Position numbers and translations under genes: made by a program
Part shown: in pieces, positions 20,866 through 40,825 of the stretch
How the letters are laid out: each line of letters starts with the position of its first letter
Position numbering within the stretch: the stretch's first letter is position 1
Notes under the pieces: generated by a model
Databases searched by the model: none
What the model saw: the letters and a program-made list of their open reading frames with translations, nothing else
Told to the model about the DNA's origin: nothing
Assembly (NCBI GenBank): GCA_000310025.1
Contig: FN648435.1
Span: forward strand, 18,266 to 60,695
Reading direction: 5' to 3'
Source: Ectocarpus siliculosus
Taxonomy: Eukaryota; Sar; Phaeophyceae; Ectocarpales; Ectocarpaceae
DNA: 42,430 nucleotides

Positions 20866-21917
20866 TCACATCACCAAGCGCGAAGCGCCGTGAGGTATTC
20901 GGCGAATCGCATGAAGGGTGCGCTGCATCCTGCTAAGGGTGTTCGGCACCTTGTGCTTACTTCGTTGCGTACGGATGACAGCTGCGCATGACTTAAATTT
21001 ATTTTCTGGTGCTTTCACATCCAGAGACAGTTGTAAACGCTGTGTAACTGCCTCGAGGGTGCTTGACCAATTTAACATAACGTGCGATTATCCCCTTTGC
21101 GCGGAGTGACGGTTCTCGACCACGCACAACATGATATACTCGACCACCATGATGGTTACCGCCAAAAAAAAGCAAAAGGCAAAAAAAGAAAGGGGCAACC
21201 TTGTTGCCGAGTTCACTAAGTGAATTGGCTTGTTTTACAACATCGCTGCCAATCGACGAAAACCCAACCCCGATGGCAAACACCGGGGGGGGCGACTTGT
21301 AAGGGGCGGCTGCGAGGGGAGTGGGCAAAATATACGAAAGACGTCCGTCTGTGACCACGCTCGATAAATACGCAGCAGACTTGGGCCCATTTCACCATCT
21401 AGGCACCAAATTGCAATCTAACACTCGCCCACAAAAAGTAAAATTGTGTCCCAACCGCTACATTTTCAATCCGTGGTCGGTGCGTGTAGATATTGTAGCA
21501 CAGCATCTGTGCCGATACAAAGTCATGTCAAGTCGGGCAGCGAGCGTCGCCGCCCAAAACTAACCGGGGCAGGCGTGATTTTTTTTGTTTTCCGCTGCTG
21601 CTTCTGCTGCTGTCTGTGCTCAGCAGCTGCTACTGCTGCAAGATACATACACATAGATGAGACAGGGAAAAACAGAACTTTCGCTGACGCTATGGATTCA
21701 TTGCTATTATAGTCTATGACTCTTTTATTTTCTATAGGTAGTCTAGAGATGCCTTCGTTGCGTTGGTTGGGTCATACTGACAAGATTTAAAAAAAAAACA
21801 TGGGCAAGGGGGGCGGGAGACACACACCGGGAGAGCGAGGCGAGAGGGTATGCCCTATACTGCTGTTAGCTTTCGGTGGAGGAAGCGAGAGGACAGAAAG
21901 AAAGCCTTCGGGTATGT

Positions 21918-22136
21918 ACCGTATATGACACAAGATAACACACCCCCTGGACCGATTTTCAAAGCTCGATTACTCCACGACGAAGAGGATGCATAAATGA
22001 AATAATACGTTTTCGAACAGCTCTCGACGAGACGGTTCCAACGCCGCCGTTTTCGGCGCTGTGACTCTTCCTGCTGTTGAGAAATCGAGCTTTGAAAATC
22101 GGTCAAGGGGGTGTGTTATCTTGTGTCATATACGGT
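21918..22136. mobile_element. Foldback inverted repeat (54-bp arms, 111-bp loop)
   Basis: Arms at 21918-21971 and 22083-22136 are inverted copies with one mismatch in 54. Each runs from ACCGTATATGACACAAG at the outer end to CTCGATT at the inner end. RNA across it would form a long hairpin. It could be a small foldback transposon or a MITE end pair; no target-site duplication was established. Confidence 0.85.
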
Positions 22137-23333
22137 ATGTTGGTGGTGTGCGTTTGTTGTCATCATCAGCGAGCGAGAGAGAGAGGACAGAGAGAGGCAC
22201 AACAACACACGATGCTAGACACCACCATTGATAATGCATGTACTGCTGTAACCCTCTCCTCTAAGGGCCTAGGGTGCCACCTGTGTCTTCCGTGCTACAG
22301 TAGTCTGGTCACCCATCACACGCTATAAGGTTGCCGGATGAAAGCTCGAAGCAGAGAGAGGAACAGCGTTTTTTTCTTTTTTTTCGCTGCAAGCTGATGG
22401 TGAATAACACCCCCCCCTCTCTAGCTCATGATGATGAGCACCACCTCAATAAACGCGCGAGCCTACAGGTACTTTTTTCAACACAAAAAAAACAAGGTGT
22501 GGCGATACTGGACTGTGTGGGTTGCAGCGACGTGTTGTGAAAGGTCTGCTCTGACAGGTTGTTGTGGGGGCGGGCTGCGTGAGGATGTTGTTGTTGTTGT
22601 TGTTTCTCTCACATTGTATCCCCGGCTAGAGGTACGCCTGATTCTGTCTGACATCATTCTTCTAAAAAAATCTACAGTTTTGGACCCAAAAAGTCGCAAG
22701 CAGCCAGCATCCACACGTCCCAAACGATAGTTGAGCACCACAGCTACTCGTCCCACTACTCCAAACGGTGGCCTACAGCGCTCGCGAGATCGATATCCAG
22801 TGCAAAAAAAAAGGTGGCGCAATCTACTTAAACTCCTGACACTGACATGCTCACCCGCACTCACTCTAGATGTTTTCTGTTGGCACATGCGTGAATGCAT
22901 GCACCAACGATGCATGCACCAACGACCATTGTAATGTATACAGCTCATGCGCAAACCCACCAGCGCCGATCGACAAAGAGAAAAAAGAGACTGCATGTTA
23001 GGAAAGAAGCGAACACGTTCAGCTACACATACAAATGCCACGGCGGTTTGATGATTGTGATGGTACGCGTACGTACGTACGTACGTAGATGTTTATATAC
23101 CAGCCCCGGCAGTGTCGACAGCGAGAGTATCGGTGCTTTGGGCCGAAAGATGTGTACTTACGGACAGACAACGGAGTTGAGACAACAATGGTTGGTGAAC
23201 ATCTTGTTTGTCAGGATCCATGCATGCACAAAACACGTTATTTTTGCGTTCGTTGCGCACTCAACGACTCTCACCTGTGTAGTTGCTCGTACCGCTGCTG
23301 TAGGCGTCACTCTCCTTGGGGCAACCGCCGGCC

Positions 23334-23582: not shown

Positions 23583-24496
23583 AAAGTTTTAGCATGCTCG
23601 GGCAGCAGCAGGAGCGCAGCAGGCTGGTTACCTGCTGAGAAAATCTCACACGCGGCTCCGAAAGCCCAAACGGTAAACCCCACGCCGCATTCTTAGCAAA
23701 AACACGCTGCCCCAGAAGGCGTCAGATGGGCAACACTCCAGACCCCGCCGCCGCACACCAAACAACTCGAACCTGAGTTGGTCAGAGACGAGAGCAAGCG
23801 CCGGCCTTCAACGCGGATCATGGCTGTGTGGTTGATGGCGTCTTACTGGAGAATCTTGCACTCCCACACTGTTGTGAGGGCAGGCAGGTGCTGCCGCTGC
23901 GTGAGAGTTTGAGCGCAGGGACTTACGGCGGGTTTATCGGGGGTTTGCGGTTTGTGCCGGGTTGATAACGTGCCGATAAAAAAAAAAAAATGCCGACGCC
24001 CAATACCACCCGGGCACACATAGCGCGCAGAGGGAGTGGAGGACTCCAGAATATATGTCGTTGATTTCTATTGACTTGCAAACCCCTCGGGCCCAGTTTT
24101 TTTGAGTGTACCTTTCTAGGGTAAGTTAACCTTTGACCACGGGAATCGACCGCGTCGAGTGTTGGATCAGACGGACATACGAAGGTACTGGGTAGGAGAG
24201 ATCGGAACGGAACCCTTACGTGACTACACCCCCGAATCGGGCATGTTAGCAGGCACGATAACTCTTATATGCGACAACTTTCGAACCGAATTGAGCTGTG
24301 GATACCTGCGTCGACGACGGCTCGACGGTACGACTAGACCGCTCGAAAAGAAACAAAGTAACGACCGGGGACAGAAACAGCACGTCCCCTATACAGAAAA
24401 TTGAAAGCCTGGGAGTTGCAATGCTCCGCAGCACCCTGCATCCCGCGCTGCTGCTGTGCTGCTGTGGACCTCAGTCCAGCACGCAGAAACGCGATA
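23583..24496. other. Upstream flank of the OTU-piggyBac gene
   Basis: No gene recognised. It holds a 13-base A run near 23978 and a TTAA at 24126-24129 followed by CCTTTGACC, a possible remnant of a piggyBac-type left end. No convincing core promoter is visible. Confidence 0.35.
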
Positions 24497-24700
24497 ATGA
24501 TGCTGTTTTTCCTCCTGCTTGTTGCGATTTTTCGCACGAGCGCTATGGACGGGGTTCCTGTGTATCACGTTCGCAAGGAACAGGAGCTAGCTCCCCAGCC
24601 GGCTGCGTTGGGCCAACGGGTACAGCAGCACATCGATGGATCTGCGTCGCGCATCATTTGCAGCACAGAATTGACAAGAGGTGGGAGGGTTATGGTCTTG

Positions 24701-25318
24701 CCCGACCGCGCTGGTGTGTATACCGTAAAGCCGGATGGCCACTGCGGGTTTAGTGCGATGTCCGCGGGTCTGCAGGTTTGCCTCGGTAGAACAAGGGCCG
24801 CCCCCACCCCAGAGAACATGAGGAGCGTGGTCGCCCGTCGAGCCACGGAACATGTTCTTGGCGCATCCGGTGTTGAGGACTTGACAGCTGTACTCTCACC
24901 AGACCAGCTTGGGCGGGCCCGGAGTGTGCGTATACCGGATGTTTTAGGAGCTGCCGTGGAAGAAATGACGGCGCCGGAGGATAAGACGGTCGGTTGGTTT
25001 CGCGAGAAAGCCCAGCTAAGTGCAACAACAAAATGGATTGACGTGACCTGGTTCTCTTTTCTGGCGTCGGAGTACGGGGTGAACATCATGTTGTGGGAGC
25101 CAAGCCCCACGTACGGCACAGTTCAGCCGTACTCAGCAGCCCTCACGGCAGGCATGTTCTTGTTCGAGAAAAAAGACAAAATGGACGAGGAGGGGGATCG
25201 CTGGGTGCATCTGCTCTATCGGAAACACGACGATCCGTGGGCAGCGCGCGAGGGTGTAGGTGAGGCAGGCCATAAACAGCACAACCACTTCGACCGTCTG
25301 CAGCTTGGACTCAACGTA
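24701..25318 (+). other. OTU-like cysteine protease domain
   Basis: The D-G-H-C-G-F block with a preceding hydrophobic strand, and the distal H-N-H-F-D block after a WVHLLY strand, match the Asp/Cys and His motifs of OTU deubiquitinase-like domains in order and spacing (about 180 residues apart). Both presumed catalytic residues are present, so nothing visible rules out activity. Confidence 0.75.
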
Positions 25319-28272
25319 CATACTTCCTTCATCGATGTCGTCAGAGTTGCAAAGGAGAAAGCGCTAGGAATGGCGGCGCCGGTGCCGTCGGCGAGCGCCA
25401 CGGCCGGGAAGAAAGCGCCAGGGTCCGCAAAGGTGGACGGAGAAGAGGTGGACGATCCCGAGTTCAGCATGAGACCAAGCGGCAGCAACAGCAACAACAG
25501 CAGCAGCAGCAGCCGGCAAGCGGAGGGAAAGGCTGCAGCGGGAAAGAAAAGCAAGGCGAAGATCGGGAGTAAGGTCGGGGTGAAGCGACCAACCGAGAGG
25601 CAGCCAGGGGACAGCAAGAGGCACAAGGCGGGGGGTGCACCGGGGAAGCAGCGCAAGGCGGTTGGTGTGCCGGGGAAGCGCAAGGCGGGGGGTACACCAG
25701 GGGAGGGGAGGGGTGCCGCAAAGAAATGCAAGAGTACGCCGACGGGTAGGAGGAAATCGGTGAAGAGCAACGGCCAAGTAGACGAAGCCAACTATGATTC
25801 CGACGGCAGCATCGGGGGGGGGGACCACGAGCGAACCCAGGGCTCCTTCGCTAGCATGTCGCAGAACGAGAAGAAGGTGGTGGCCGCCATGAAGAAGATC
25901 CAGGAGCTCAAGTACAGGCGGGCGTACTTGCTGAGCAACAAGAGGAGGGCGCGGGGTCTAAAGGTGGGTTTGTGTTCGTGTAGACTTTTCTCTTGGCATT
26001 TTCCAGGCGAATAGGCGGACCTAAGAGAAGACGACGATTTATGGTGGTGCAAAAGTTGAGTCCGATAAATAGTGCGAATCAATACTGCTGTAGCAGTTTC
26101 TTGCGTTTTTTTTTTCGCTTGGAATACCGAGTAGAGAGTGCCCTATCAACGCTGAACAAACGCGTGTCTAGGTAGGCACTTTGTTTCGCCTCGTGTGGTC
26201 GCTAGTCTCTACCAAAAATAATCTTAGAAGTGTTGGTAAAAAGCACCTTGGTTGCTTGCATGATCATGTTGACGCCTCCGTGCCTGGCTCCTGTTGCTCA
26301 ACACGGGTGTGGTTTCCAATGTTGGCAGGGGGGCAACGAATGTCGAGTTCACGATTCGGAGTATGTAAATGCATGTGCGTGACCTGAACACCCTACTGGC
26401 CCTGTATGGTGTTACTTTTGATCGCCGTGTCAGTTTCATGTGAATCTCTCGCTCGCTCGATTCGTAGGTGTTAGTGACACCGTCGCCTCGTACGACTTTA
26501 TTTTTTTTCGGATGATTGAACACAACACGGCAGGGTATGAATTGACACACCTGCCGCTCTGTTTCCGCTGTTTGCCGACGACGTGCTCAACCCAGCTCAA
26601 GGCCATACGCGACAGGGAGAAGGAGAGGCTCAAGAAAGCGGCAGAAAAGGAAAAAGAAAACCAGCTTCGGCCGCGGCAGGAGGTGGAGGAGGAGGAGCGA
26701 CAAGAGAGAGAGGAGCTAGAGAAGCAGCAGCAGCAGGAGCAGGAGGAGTTGAAAGCTGAGGCGGAGGAGTACCCGGAGGTGGCGTGGACTGACCGCGGCA
26801 TTCCTGACTTTGCGGGAACGACGGACCACAAGAAGAGAACCCGGCGGCAAGCGGTCAGCGCTGCTTCGCTGTCGGCGTCCGCGCGATCGAAGTTGCCCTC
26901 TCTCGATACCTTCATGGGCGGCCGCGACGAGAACGGAGAGTTCCCGCTGAGTGGTTTGATGAAGACGTGCTTCAACATGATGTTCCCCGACAAGGCAGTA
27001 GATCTTTTCGTGCAAAAGGTGAGCATTGGTGTTTTCGTGTGGTCGCATTCCTTATTAAGTTGCACTCGAACAACTCAGTAGGGGGGTTGCACGCAAGTAA
27101 GAGACCGAGCCGTTATGCGTCGGACTTGAAAGTAGTTCCGCGGGAAGGGGGGGAGGGGGGGGGGCGGGATGAATTGTATGCCCTTTGTTGGTGTTTACAC
27201 TGCATGATGTCGTCTGCATGCCTTGGTCGCCTAATCATACTGGCCGAATGTAGATCACAGCTCATCAAGATTGTCAAACACACGGGGGTTTATGCGGTGT
27301 TCATGCATACTTCCCTCCGGACGTGCTACGTACCAGCGTATCGTGCATGGGGTGGTTTGCAAGGGCGGATGCAATACCGCGGAATGTACTCCCTGTAGAG
27401 AAGCACCCTCCCCCCCCCCTATCCAGCGCGCGGGATCCCTGTTATGTATGTTGTAATTTGATTACCGATATCCACCCGACCAACCCAACAATTGAAAGCG
27501 GGTACTAGGTAGATGCCTGAGAACACAGTCTGTTGTGGCCCCTTGCGGTATTGCTTACGTTCCAAGACACCCGCGGAAGGCATATGCGGATTAATTTAAT
27601 CAAACATGTCTGTGCTGCCACGGCTTGCATCAACAATCATTGTGTATATATACGACACCTCGGCGCGACCTCTGGGGCGAATATGCTAATCTTCGCTCCG
27701 TCTTGTTGTCCCTGACCTCTTCCGCGCGAAACGTGATACTTTTCCAGACCAACAAGTACGTGAACCTTTGCACCACACCACCACCCCCCGGAGCTACGGA
27801 GAAGCGCAAGGAGCATCAGATGAAGAAGACGAGAACTCTAGGCAGGGTCACCCTGCCGGAACCCGCATTCGAGCGCAAGCACATCTACGGCATGCTGGGC
27901 ATCACGATCACGATGGGGCTCACCAAGAAAACGCGCATGAGGAAGCACTGGAGTAGATCGTTGCACGACGACTATCCTCTAGTGAGGGCGTGCATGCCGC
28001 GTGACTTGTTCGAGCTGTTGTACTGCCGTTTCATCCACTGCTCGGACGGCAACGCTCCTCCTCGATTGTTGGACGAGGACAACACCCCTAACCCGGACTT
28101 CGATTCGAAGTGGCACATCAGGTGAGTTTTACCCGTCGGAGACTTCGAGCGTTCTGACTGTTGGACCACGCTCCTCCATTTTTTCATGTGGTGAAATAAA
28201 ACGGCCTCCAAGCCGGCGAGTACCCTAGAATCCAAATCCAAAGGGTTCATGTCGTTGTACCTGTCGTTGCCC

Positions 28273-28390
28273 TACACCACCCGCCCTCCCCGTGGAATAC
28301 TACACGTGACCACTACAGTAGCGTACAGTTGTACACCACCCGCCCTCCCCGTGGAATACTACACGTGACCACTACAGTAGCGTACGGTTG
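28273..28390 (+). repeat. 59-bp tandem duplication in transposase intron 3
   Basis: Two adjacent, almost identical 59-bp copies begin TACACCACCCGCCCTCCCCG. The single difference noticed is near the copy ends (GTACAGTTG versus GTACGGTTG). Confidence 0.9.
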
Positions 28391-30177
28391 GGATGATCAT
28401 AGCTACGGACTAGCGTGGTTGGTGTGTGTAATCAATAGGCGAGCATTCGTATGTCCGTTCGTGTCCCACGAATGTTCTACAACAGATTAACCAACGCCAC
28501 ACCTCCGTGCTAATCTTGACGTCGCTTCACCGGCAGAGAGCTCGAAGACATCTTGAACACCGCGTGGACGGAAAACATGGACTTCAACCAGTGGCTGTGC
28601 TACGACGAGCAGATGGTGAAGACTGTGTCGAGGTACGCGCACTTCCTCATGAGACACCAGCCCAAGAAGCCCATCACCCACGGTACGCGGTTTGTGTTTC
28701 GTGTTGTATGGACGATTCCTGCCGACTGTGTGTTTTCCTTGTGACGGCCTTGCGGTGTGAGGGCTCGGCGGCTGGGGACATGGGCGAAGACCTTGTATAG
28801 TATTCGGTTTTCAAGGGCCACCATGTGGTGGAGTTGTCATTTTTGCTTTTGTGGAGTTGACCCCCCCCCCCTCTCCCTCTACTGGAAAAATAGGAGCAGG
28901 AACATTTGGCGTTTAGGTCACATGAAGAAATCATGCCCGTGGGCATAATCCAAAGCTCGATTGCTACACAGAGCTCGGCGGTGCCGAAAATGGCGGAGCT
29001 GGAACCGTCAATGACTGTCCACGAGTTTCAAGCGGCAAACTCGAATAGAGTGCAAACGGGCACGATTGACTGCTGCGCCGCCTTGTTAATTCGCTCCACC
29101 ATTTTTCCCTATTCACGTTGTTCCAATGCAGGCGTGAAGATGCTCGCGATCTGCGACGTCGCGGGGTACTGTTTCGTCAGCAGCGTCGAGGGTGGATTTT
29201 CGGGGGATCCCAAGCTGAGGAAGTGGTCTGACTGCCCTCTGGGACGGACCACTCGGCACGTTCTACATGTCCTGCTCGACGCCTGCAAGGAGTTCGGTGA
29301 CAAAATCGACGGCTCTGGCGTGCACATCGCAATGGACAACTACTTCACAAGCCCGACACTGTTCGAGTGTCTTGCGGGCCACGACATCTTCGCGGTGGGT
29401 ACGTGCCGGGTTAACCGAACCGCTGGCGCGATCCCTTTCTTGCAGAGCCTCGATCGCATCCCCGTCAAGCGGGGAGACATGAACTTTGCCCGCGCCGGCA
29501 ATGTCGCATTCGTGCAGTGGCTCGACTCGAAGGATATCATCCTGTGCAGCACCATCCACCTCGCGCAACCTCGCGCCGCCATCGGCCAGCCCAAGAAGGA
29601 AGACGACGACGGCGGCGACGACCATTTCGCACCTCTACCTTACAGGTGACCTTTTTTGTTGTTGTTGACCAGATTCATGTTTTTATTTCTGCGTCTTCAT
29701 GTCGGATGCCTCGCTCGAGTAGCATGTCGGTCAAACTGGTTCGTGCAAAGGTTGATGGAGTTCAAAGTTTGGTGTTGCCAAAATGCAGCGGCTCGGGTTC
29801 ATGCCTTTAGTATTCGGTTCGTCACACAGGCTGTTCTCACCGACCGGGAACGTGCTTGGGGCTTGAGCATTGTAGTGTTGACAGGGGCTGATGCTACGCC
29901 GGGGTAAAAATAGGTTGCTACGTCCGACGACCTCCATCCAGTTCGTCGTCGCCGCAGCCGCAAGTGTGGTGCCTGACCCATGTGTTCCGCCTGCCCCCCG
30001 CCTGCCTGCCCCTTTTCGTGCGTGTCCAGCCTGCGCAAAGCTGGGCAGAAGGGGAAACCCATGGAGCTACAGCAGCCGTGGATGCGTAAGGATTACGTGG
30101 CCAACATGGGGGGAGTAGATACGGCCGACCAACAGAATGGTTCCCACGCCCATGACCACAAGGCGTGCACGAACTAC

Positions 30178-30180
30178 TGA
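30178..30180 (+). other. In-frame TGA interrupting the transposase
   Basis: The frame before (ending KACTNY) and after (RRVMEAKIEQTF) continues a conserved piggyBac segment in which a Trp commonly occupies this position. A single G-to-A change of TGG would explain it. The 177 codons beyond are open and keep the Cys-rich tail. Confidence 0.8.
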
Positions 30181-30714
30181 CGGCGAGTGATGGAGGCCAA
30201 GATTGAGCAGACGTTCACCAACATTTTCGTGATGTTCAAGGCTTTGGTAGCCTTCTGGGACGGTGAAGCGAAGGAGAGGCTCGAGAGAGGAGACCTAGAC
30301 CTTGAGTCGTCGATGGAGTTGGAGGGAGTGGTGAAGGAGCTCCGCAGGTTGGCCAATCTTGAGAGGTCGGACTGGGACGAACAGATGTCGACGGAGCTCA
30401 TGGGGAGGTGCGGTGTTGGTAGCCTCAACAAGGGGGGGAGACAGGTCAAAGATACGGAACCCCCGAAGGACGTTTGGGGGAGCGTTCACATTAAGACAAA
30501 ACGCAAGTGCATGTACCCCGGATGCAAGAAAACGACAAGAAAAGGGTGTGCCTGCGAGGCGTTCTGCGGTGCAGGGCGGGAGGGGGGCGGGGGGGTTTTG
30601 ATGTGCAAGGGATGCTTCGAGAACCCGGCGAGGCACGCTAGGGCCGCACGGGCTGAACGGGAGGCCTCGAAGTTCGGAAAAAGGACACGGAAGGATATGA
30701 ACTGGTGCTCGTGA

Positions 30715-31980
30715 CCGTTTTTTGTTGTTGTTGCGAGTGTTTCGGGCGGAGGAAACAGGGATCGACTCGTGTAAGGGTCCCTTGACATATTTTTTGGCAG
30801 GCAGACTGATCGTAGCGCATCATCTTCCCGTCCGTCATGAAAATGTTTTACTCCGTCGTTTACCTGTTGTGTCTTCCCGATAGCAGTGGTATTATAGTGT
30901 GGGGCGTTTGTGTTGTGTACTTGTTTACCACCCATCTGTATCATGTAGCGGTCGAAGTACGATCGTTTTCATCCTTGCGAGATAAAGTGCAAGTTACTGA
31001 ATCACAATATTGTAGGTCTTTTATTCCGCGCTATTTCTGAAAGCGTGTGTCTTTAGAGTCTGAAGCGTCCTCCGGGATATGCGGTGAAGAGTGCTTGTCG
31101 GGCAACTGTTGGTGGGCGCCGGCGGTGTCACCTGCGGTAGTGAGTTTTTAGCCCCCCCCCCTTTAGCCCCCATTCGCTTGTAACTACTGTCAGTGTTGTT
31201 GCGATTAGCCACGGCTCGTGTATCGCTCGTTGTGTGTCGTTTTTAACCCGAAACCTATGTGGCAAGAGCCTTAGGTTTGGCGTCGGTATCCCGTGCTTTG
31301 GTCGACAGACATGTTCGCACGTAGACAAGGAATGGAGTACGAAGTGTACAAGGTTTGCAGATACCAAGGTTTGCAGATAAAATCGAAAGAAGTCTTCGGC
31401 ATCTAGATAAACAACGTTTTCCTGGCACTTTAGTTTTTTCACTGCGTGCGGTGTAGTCTAGTCCTTTCGTGCGACAACGTCATACACACCACGTGCCGGT
31501 GGTGCTCACCAGTAGTTCAGAGACCGCAAACGGCATCGGAATCCAACCGTGTGCCAATGACAGACATTCCGGAGACCTTCATGCGATCAAGTCGTGAATA
31601 CTTGCAAGATCATTTGTTCCATGTTTATTCCATTTCTTCATCTCGAAACCAAGGCGCTGATCTCTGCGAAAATGCAATACACATCTCCCGGCGAGTGCGC
31701 CTGCAACATGCGACGAAACATACGGAATTTTCAGATCACACCATTGCACCATCGGTTGTTCCACCGAGTTGTGCCTTGCAGCACTCTTTCTCCAAATAAC
31801 CCCAGCGAATTGAACGACAAACCCAGCGAACTCAAAGTCATGCGGGGGCACGACGCCCTGCAAACTAGCCAAGCGCAAACCTTGAGGGTCTGCTCGAAAC
31901 TCTTGTAAGTACGAAACCCTCTCCACCCCCCCACCCCACCCCTCAGGCTCCATGATCAGCCTAAAACACGCGCTCGAGAA
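30715..31980. other. 3' flank of the transposase gene
   Basis: No gene recognised. A minus-strand frame at about 31579-31920 is open but not recognised and lacks consistent codon bias. Confidence 0.4.
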
Positions 31981-32130
31981 TCACGACAATGCCTCCGCAA
32001 TGGCCGCTGGTATGGCTTCGTCTCCCGGCCACACCGCGCGGCACGCCTGCGTGAAGCAGTCCCTCCTCGTGATTTGAACGCCACGACCCCTCGCGTTGAG
32101 GCGGGTGCTCACGTCGAACGAAGCCTGCAC
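31981..32130 (-). CDS. Possible terminal exon of an unrecognised gene
   Basis: After a plausible acceptor (cgcaacgtgcag|GCT) the minus-strand frame ASFDVSTRLNARGRGVQ continues to PAAIAEALS and a TGA at 31983-31981. Third positions are strongly G or C. I do not recognise the family. It may belong with the exon at 32888-33236, but their phases do not join directly (phase 1 donor, phase 0 acceptor), so either an exon is missing or they are unrelated. Confidence 0.35.
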   Translation of the reverse strand: MQASFDVSTRLNARGRGVQITRRDCFTQACRAVWPGDEAIPAAIAEALS

Positions 32131-32887
32131 GTTGCGGGGGAAAAAACGACGACGTAGGCTTGTTTTTTTAGAGCGTGCACTCCAGTCTTTCGTGGGAAAA
32201 TGGAGAGCCAACAAACGTTACGTGGCATGCAGTATCTGTGAGAGACAGACGTTCACGCAATGGGGCGGCGCGTGCGTCTTTTTCTCCGTTCGGACTACTA
32301 ACCGCCCGTTCGGATTACAAAACCTAACTTCGGACAAGACAGAAAATTATGCTCGGCCTCCCCAGTACATCGTTACCCCTACTACTGTCTAATGCGGGGG
32401 AGTACAAAGCTGCGGGCTGCCAGCCTATTCGTACGAAATGGGAGAGTCTCCAACCTAACTGATACGGAAGATAACACCATATCTGTCTCAAAAGGGGAGT
32501 CGACGCGCTGGGCGCCGCTTGTCTTTCCAGAGCATTTGCTGAGCATTGCGGAGGTTCATAGGGATAGGGTTGCTGTAAACGCGTCTTTCAGGTCTCTCAT
32601 CCCTCTTTCCTGTCTACTTCGTGTGGTGATATGATCTGTCTGGCAGCTGCATTGATCCGCAGGCTCGAAAAACACACGCACGTTAGTCCAGGTTGAAGTT
32701 TGTGGGCCTAGTGTACTGCTGTTGTAGCACTCTTACAAGCCACCATGTCAAACAAAGCTGAACGTGAAGCACACCTATAATACACGAGGTGCAACGCGCA
32801 CAGCAGGTGCACAACCGATCTGGGTCAGCAGCCCATCATTTGTGGGGTTGCCAAATATCAATTGTACTATACTTACTTGATTCCTCA

Positions 32888-33236
32888 GACGCTTCGCTGT
32901 GACCTGCCCCCCCGAGCTCCTCTCGGCTGCCTTTGAGAAATCTACATCCCCGATCCAAGCGGGAGTGGTGGTACCCGCAGAGTCCGGGGTGCTGCTGAGC
33001 TGCGGTCCTCCTTGCTGCCAGGTCCCTTATGTCTGGGAGGGGCTGGGGCTCGTTGTCCCCGTGGCAGCAGAACCGCTTCCCAACCGCCCTGGCTGCAGCA
33101 GATGTCGCCTCGGGCAGGAGCTGGGGTGTTGTGTCCGCGATGAGAACCAGCTCGTCCCACACAACTAGGGGAGCATTCACTGGGTCCCACTCAGCCGCTT
33201 TGGCCTCCCAGAACTGAGCGATGTCCTCTGGGTCCA
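32888..33236 (-). CDS. Possible first exon of an unrecognised gene
   Basis: A true ATG in good context (ACCATGG) opens the frame MDPEDIAQFWEAKAAEWDP. It continues through VVWDELVLIAD and ends in SEASEESS at the strong donor TCAA|GTAAGT. The length and the ATG-plus-donor combination suggest a real exon. No family is recognised. It lies in a transposon-rich region and may belong to a mobile element. Confidence 0.4.
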
Positions 33237-33611
33237 TGGTGGTGATGTTGGTACTGCTGTACTGCTGTTGTTGCTGCTGTTGTGCTGGCAGGCTGTGGCG
33301 GAGTGACAAAGTGTCAAAAAGAGACACCCGCCCCCGTGCCTTCGCGTTTTTGAGAGGGTTTTCGTGACTACAGGCACGATAGGAGGCATGATAAAACCTG
33401 TCTTTATCTGGTACGATAAAGCATGCTCTCGCTGTTGACTTGTGTGCCTTCTTCCTTGCCTTCGGAATGTGGTTGCAGAACTGAAGGCCAAGCTTACGAG
33501 GCCTCTCCCCGAGTTCTCCTGCGCGCGTGTGTGTTCGAGTGTATTCCTTGTCCGTCTTCAACCAACCGCCACCACAAGGCATAGTTTATCTCTCGCGCGG
33601 CTCGTGCTTGC

Positions 33612-33652
33612 TGCTGCTGCTGCGGCGGGCTGCTGCTGCTGCTGCTGGTGCT
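33612..33652 (+). repeat. CTG trinucleotide tract
   Basis: Two runs of CTG units separated by CGGCGGG. Further shorter CTG/CAG runs lie nearby (33250-33290, 33825-33840). Confidence 0.8.
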
Positions 33653-34212
33653 TTTTCATTTTCGTTTCGCATGCATGCATCCAACAAACAAACCGCGTGC
33701 GTGTGTGCTTCTTGTCTCCGCTGGATTTACCACCCAACCAAGTGGCATTGGAGGCGGTGCCATGCCTTGCGCCAGTGTGCTGCATCGGCGGCGGGGTAGA
33801 ACTGCTGTGCATGCGATGTATCTCTACTGCTGCTGCTGTATCCATGTAGACTATCACCATGTAATCGTGTTTGGGGTAAAGAAATACGGCGCCCTCTCCT
33901 CTCTCTCTCCTCCGGTTTCCGACAGCACCTACATACAGCAGTACAGCAGTCAGTGTAGTTATCGGTCACTCATCACATTCTTCACGTGAGGGTTACGCTG
34001 CTGTTGGGCACTAAACCTTTGTGGCACCATGGGGTGCGTGCGGTTGACCCATGTGGGAACCTGTTGGTGCGCAAACAAACGTGCAAACGTTCAAGTGCAG
34101 GTGTCGTGTGTGTGTGTCTCATGACTCATCGGTCTATTCGGTCCCGGCAGAACAAAAAAAAACGCGGAAGATCCAGAAAGAACCCAGTCACGAAAGGGTT
34201 AATGTGAAAAAA

Positions 34213-36256: not shown

Positions 36257-40825
<4,569 letters not shown>

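Follow-up and report, generated by a model that had tools for sequence, protein, structure and literature searches.

The 42,430-nucleotide stretch of the Ectocarpus siliculosus genome analyzed here (the window, taken at its full length: assembly GCA_000310025.1, contig FN648435.1, positions 18,266 to 60,695, designated C66:18266-60695 in our searches) raises an unusual question: can a domain resembling the OTU cysteine proteases be part of the same protein as a piggyBac-type transposase and, if so, what could it do there? The original prediction, made from the letters of the window alone, proposed such a fusion, encoded by six exons. The present analysis identified around this gene a whole piggyBac-type element of 9,986 bp (24213..34198, forward strand; all positions are those of the window) and copies or relatives of it elsewhere in the genome. 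The predicted in-frame join of the OTU-like exon to the transposase is well supported by comparison of these loci, and assignment of the domain to the OTU type is plausible.

All six predicted exons were recovered with slightly refined ends; the five introns are all of the GT..AG type and the joined frame comprises 3609 nt. On the forward strand, exon 1 (24497..25963) encodes a hydrophobic leader, the OTU-like domain, a basic linker and the start of a charged helix, exon 2 (26596..27018) this charged helix or acidic linker and the start of the N-terminal region of the transposase, exons 3 (27748..28121) and 4 (28537..28682) further parts of the transposase, exon 5 (29132..29645) the catalytic core, including the first two residues of the triad (Asp 812 and 872), and exon 6 (30030..30714) the third Asp (1005), an in-frame TGA and then a Cys-rich tail (C1135-H1177). 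The part before the stop matches DDE_Tnp_1_7 (E 9.1e-33, 114.4 bits for a cut-off of 22.4) and contains the whole DDD triad (ICD812, AMD872 and GGVD1005), the triad of the piggyBac transposase (PB) being D268, D346 and D447 (PMC7351741). The transposase domain was announced as complete; its three Asp are present, but the protein of this copy is cut short: the TGA (codon 1025; 30178..30180, forward strand) follows the third catalytic Asp and precedes the Cys-rich tail, whose seven Cys and one His (1135-1177) are found in the DNA behind it. Since the window copy is stopped ahead of this tail, which is indispensable in PB, where it binds the ends of the transposon (PMC8086355), this copy is probably not autonomous. 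None of the nine other distinct loci matching the anchor at this position carries the stop (loci that do not match, e.g., C184, C122 and C91, fall outside this count), and therefore the lesion looks private to the window copy; other copies are open there. A tandem duplication of about 58 bp was also seen by eye in intron 3 (about 28270-28385).

In the host assembly (189 Mb, 492 contigs), DDE_Tnp_1_7 matched 29 places, which were manually assigned to 25 loci, and the OTU-like query matched 42 places (split matches included). An OTU-like match was found upstream of the transposase, on the same strand and within 10 kb, at 17 of the 25 loci: 12 of the window type (family A), two of family B (C472, C184) and three of family C (C16, C122, C187). 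The original prediction named separate OTU and transposase genes in all homologues as the pattern that would contradict it, and this pattern is not what the loci show. Identity of the OTU-like part to that of the window is about 60% in family B and 34-37% in family C. Over the stretches compared, identity to the window is 98-100% in family A, and therefore this family has moved, or was duplicated, recently. Regarding the critical join (25963/26596), the donor GT of exon 1 is kept in six of seven loci (the window, C472, C74, C16, C122 and C187, being altered in C184), and the acceptor AG|CTC of exon 2 in all six loci read, with phase 0 throughout; the sites of the predicted join are thus conserved across divergent families. 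Exons 3-6 are open in two of the four family A loci read. Two further loci, C74 (family B) and C11 (family C), have the OTU part and no transposase match. Besides these, five copies have a 100% identical OTU exon with no exon 5 match nearby (C12:2169078, C30, C241, C456:133168 and C456:619241), and one internally deleted copy (L046, C456:105270-115269) lacks about positions 24803-29738 of the window.

The remaining eight transposase loci have no OTU match. Their upstream sequences were read for C234, C50 and C91 (C474, C137, C16:1849347, C7 and C183 being left out). In C234, a member of family C, the left end is still present, as are roughly the last 77 codons of exon 1, but the intervening sequence is gone; this locus is therefore a deletion derivative. 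C50 and C91 constitute family D and share 97% identity where both could be read; in C91, exons 3-5 have the same boundaries with 43-48% identity, and no similarity to C50 was seen before L072:3725. Exon 1 of C50 lies in a stop-to-stop frame of 409 aa devoid of OTU motifs. Its tail is homologous to those of families A and C (28.5 and 24.6 bits, respectively, when only two short sequences were searched) and ends in a phase-0 donor, and therefore exon 1 is part of the transposase gene. The OTU-like domain is a module within exon 1 of families A, B and C that is not found in that of C50, and both a gain before the divergence of A, B and C and a loss in D are possible. Overall, the join is well supported because of the same-strand upstream linkage found for 17 of 25 loci, the conserved splice sites and the exon 1 tail of C50 with its phase-0 donor. 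Exon 1 of C50 (L095:1837-3066) also carries a short Cys/His motif (CGAIISRG...CGNK...FCKHH) and gave only sub-threshold Pfam matches.

Comparison of copies also set the limits of the element, which are marked by a sharp onset of identity at 24211-24216 and its end at 34198. The left terminal inverted repeat (CCCTTACGTGAC; 24213..24224, forward strand) and the right one (CCCTTTCGTGAC as reverse complement; 34187..34198, reverse strand) are 12 bp long, start with CCC and match at 11 of 12 positions. The window copy is flanked by GGAA on its left and by TTAA on its right (34199-34202); a search for TTAA on the window alone failed because of this left flank. TTAA directly precedes the left end in 19 of 25 copies (the window copy counted, and loci overlapping another locus excluded). 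On the right, where 20 of the 29 matching places in the genome were fetched, the exact repeat was found in 16, of which 14 are followed by TTAA. For families B and C, TTAA-CCCT was found at the left end of six of the seven copies read, that of C122 being decayed. Flanks are common to C53 and C24, and likewise to C162 and C23, and therefore not all these ends are independent insertions. The C30 copy (L010, L053) has TTAC instead of TTAA at both flanks. The element is a DNA transposon of the piggyBac superfamily, with TTAA targets and CCCTTA... ends, and we hold its anatomy and its membership of this superfamily to be nearly certain.

Is the domain of exon 1 (24698..25353, forward strand) really of the OTU type? 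In OTU-type enzymes, the Cys box comes first and is followed by His-x-Asp. The window copy has DGHC at residues 80-83 and NHFD at residues 263-266, in this order, providing Cys83, His264 and Asp266 as conserved candidate catalytic residues. DGxCG is kept in all eight loci compared, the His of NHFD in seven (Tyr in C11) and its Asp also in seven (Gly in C184). With a pattern made of known OTU motifs and written after the sequence was seen (DGxC, H[YF][DN]), no shuffle of exon 1 out of 200,000 showed both boxes in order and, among the 54 stop-to-stop frames of at least 150 aa in the window, only exon 1 itself did. A local profile-profile match with the other OTU copies of the genome reached a score of 25.2 over a few columns of the Cys box, beating all 300 shuffles (maximum 20.6), and SidE_DUB matched the window domain at E 0.039, far below its cut-off. 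These motifs suggest that the domain probably adopts an OTU-type fold; the OTU assignment, based on conserved DGxCG and NHFD, is plausible. The other OTU-like places in the genome (L073-L088, GDGACLLRCIARR type), several of which are near-identical, are probably carried by other transposons.

Several observations weigh against a working OTU protease joined to a nuclear transposase. The boxes of the protease claimed in the original prediction are in place, but no OTU model recognizes it: the OTU-like domain gave no OTU-clan match in Pfam at curated cut-offs, the 25 genomic matches of Pfam OTU (PF02338) at E<=10, of which 13 exceed the cut-off, include none of these loci, and the best match of Otubain (C-terminus) was a single family B fragment (E 0.13, far below the cut-off). 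The local profile-profile match covers only 11 columns of the Cys box, with a probability of 8.8%, the global profile alignment does not stand out from shuffles (141 of 300 reach it) and a hidden Markov model built from the other OTU copies of the genome gives E 13 or worse on the domain. The relatives C50 and C91 seem to do without the OTU-like domain. Among the 25 family A loci read for exon 1, 14 have a stop or a shift before the donor and five lack a donor string in the part read, the frame being open to the donor in six, including the window copy; in some copies, single-base shifts may be assembly errors in long G runs. Finally, the signal-peptide-like leader (residues 1-16; 24497..24544, forward strand) would be unexpected in a nuclear protein. 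It follows a FFxLLLAxFRxS-like pattern in families A (MMLFFLLLVAIF), B (MRPFFLLLLAIF or MIPFFLLLLAIF) and C (MRTQFFTLLLAVF), and the OTU-less C50 also has a hydrophobic leader before exon 1 (MGRHLRPAWSALSIWAALLVVLAVAL; L095, about 2017-2120). Translation could possibly start at a later Met (Met17 in family A).

Between families A and C, synonymous changes in the OTU part exceed nonsynonymous ones (Fisher p 1.3e-11), and the same excess was found between A and B (p 5.1e-4; ratio of nonsynonymous to synonymous substitution rates, dN/dS, 0.49) and between B and C (p 9.6e-5; dN/dS 0.47), in counts that skip stop codons and include B and some C copies that are themselves damaged. The OTU part is thus under purifying selection between families A, B and C. 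For comparison, the dN/dS of catalytic exon 5 is 0.13 between A and C and 0.41 between A and B. Constraint on the exon 6 tail is slight between A and B (dN 0.306, dS 0.34), and the 16 codons of the leader show weak constraint by themselves between A and C (p 0.049).

What would such a module do? Cut-and-paste transposition at TTAA would follow from the piggyBac family. The OTU-like module could be a deubiquitinase that acts in cis, its target being the transposase or the complex of transposase and DNA, and would strip off the ubiquitin that would otherwise route the transposase to the proteasome; shielding from ubiquitin-dependent turnover was also raised, as speculation, in the original prediction. 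Deubiquitinase domains of transposons have been proposed to prevent the proteasomal loss of transposition proteins (PMC9741609). An active deubiquitinase protecting its own transposase is the role that we tentatively favor, while granting it somewhat less than an even chance.

Among the alternatives, the one that survives best is that the module removes ubiquitin from host chromatin or from repair proteins where the element is excised or inserted, and not from the transposase itself. The insect piggyBac transposase is not known to have any OTU-like domain, which counts against such a substrate. Its seamless excision (PMC7351741) also counts against it. In favor of this alternative, the module and the DNA-cutting enzyme are here one predicted protein with a basic linker between them, and a role of such proteases on repair factors, while transposition proceeds or afterwards, has been proposed for Ginger (PMC2836005). 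We regard this alternative as rather unlikely, though worth keeping in mind. The linker in question, of nuclear type and low complexity, lies between the OTU-like domain and the transposase and ends with the exon 1 tail conserved in B, C and C50 (NYDSDGSIGGG ... KKIQELKYRRAYLL; 25354..25963, forward strand).

The domain could also be another papain-like protease, or one devoted to self-processing, for instance by cutting the leader/OTU part from the transposase. The lack of any significant match to an OTU model would fit this proposal, as would the conserved hydrophobic leader ahead of the domain and the long low-complexity linker behind it. However, a Cys box followed by His-x-Asp is the OTU-type order and no cleavage site was recognised, which makes this proposal improbable. 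A little less probable still, the domain could now be non-catalytic, serving in structure or binding or being a passenger sequence, given that there are single loci without the His (C11), without the Asp (C184) or with little left of the OTU part (C234). Yet the domain is under purifying selection between families with its Cys, His and Asp conserved, and C184 and C11 also have stops, truncations or no transposase match.

The locus could instead consist of two genes side by side, an OTU gene and a separate transposase gene starting in or before exon 2. In the window, the frame of exon 1 continues for 16 sense codons past the donor to a TAG (26012-26014), and exon 2 is preceded by an in-frame ATG. 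Past the donor, the readings of families A and B are partly alike, as is the whole start of the intron, which is still alignable at the DNA level; because of this, the A-B pair alone is silent on the coding end and insufficient to prove the donor. By contrast, nothing past the donor is common to A/B and C, whereas all three families retain the phase-0 donor and acceptor, and the OTU-less C50 has the same exon 1 tail and the same donor phase. Two separate genes are therefore very improbable. Equally far-fetched is a leader that, with the protease, would have the enzyme routed to or held at a membrane (e.g., of the endoplasmic reticulum or nuclear envelope), there escaping ubiquitin-dependent removal until self-released by the protease.

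The original prediction had overlooked several features of the element: the in-frame TGA, the transposon ends, the copy number, the hydrophobic leader and a second gene on the opposite strand. This second gene (32839..33237, reverse strand, start ATG at 33237) lies in the 3′ third of the element and is conserved near family B copies, where another frame is used after about 32954. Its product (MDPEDIAQFW...CGYHHSR) contains Cys/His pairs and has no Pfam match. Comparison of family A with the C184 relative indicates purifying selection (dN/dS 0.22, p 9.1e-8). Other repeats occur in and around the element: a MITE-like (miniature inverted-repeat transposable element-like) inverted repeat with 62-bp arms (95%) at 21917-22137, inverted fragments of which lie within intron 4 (28951-29009), and a dispersed repeat adjoining the element (24019-24210), with 88-90% copies in L045 and L047. 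Further away in the window, JAB/MPN exons (38886-39754, reverse strand; Pfam JAB E 5.2e-11 and 1.4e-10) presumably resemble the proteasome deubiquitinase Rpn11. At least 150 matches of EsV_1_7_cys were found in the genome (150 scored of 880 candidates), a family described as expanded in brown algae (PMC7457493), in keeping with a brown-algal host.

How does this element compare with known systems? It resembles other members of the piggyBac superfamily by its TTAA target, its terminal repeats starting with CCC and its DDD core, the Cys-rich tail encoded behind the stop being a candidate for the C-terminal zinc domain of this superfamily, and differs from them, and from the Ectocarpus PiggyBac families, by its N-terminal OTU-like exon, its length of 9,986 bp and its second gene on the opposite strand. 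In a survey of Ectocarpus transposons, the PiggyBac row begins with 4 and 1588, presumably families and copies; window-type elements may be among these families (PMC12477816). The word "otu" has no occurrence in the main text of this survey (PMC12477816). The original prediction knew of no described OTU-piggyBac fusion, and none was found among the best-ranked open-access papers either, Repbase and most of the subscription literature lying outside this search. The pairing of a transposon with a ubiquitin-type protease is already known; for the piggyBac class, the papers covered by this search showed none. Teratorn, which combines a piggyBac-like element with a fish herpesvirus, also joins a piggyBac-type transposase with a larger gene set, but it is 41-182 kb long with virus genes, and the accessible part of its description mentions no transposase-fused OTU (PMC6431247). 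Helitrons and Helentrons with OTU or VTD likewise carry a ubiquitin-protease domain in a transposon protein, for which protection from the proteasome has been proposed; however, they encode a rolling-circle RepHel without a DDE transposase, and their VTD has Asp-x-His where the present element has His-x-Asp (PMC9741609, PMC6431247). Another comparison is with Ginger1, which combines a cut-and-paste transposase and an OTU-type cysteine protease in one protein. However, its transposase is described as Gypsy-integrase-type instead of DDE_Tnp_1_7, and its OTU is C-terminal and assigned to pfam02338, whereas the domain reported here is N-terminal and has no pfam02338 match (PMC2836005). Membership of Ginger1 (Gypsy-integrase-type transposase with a C-terminal OTU or Ulp1) is thus ruled out by DDE_Tnp_1_7 and the N-terminal OTU-like part. 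Proteases of the ubiquitin type turn up repeatedly in transposons that are not related to each other, OTU in Ginger1 and Helitrons and Ulp1 in Ginger1 and Mutator; here, a young piggyBac family with the domain stands beside relatives without it, which allows a with/without comparison in a superfamily with well-established chemistry and assays.

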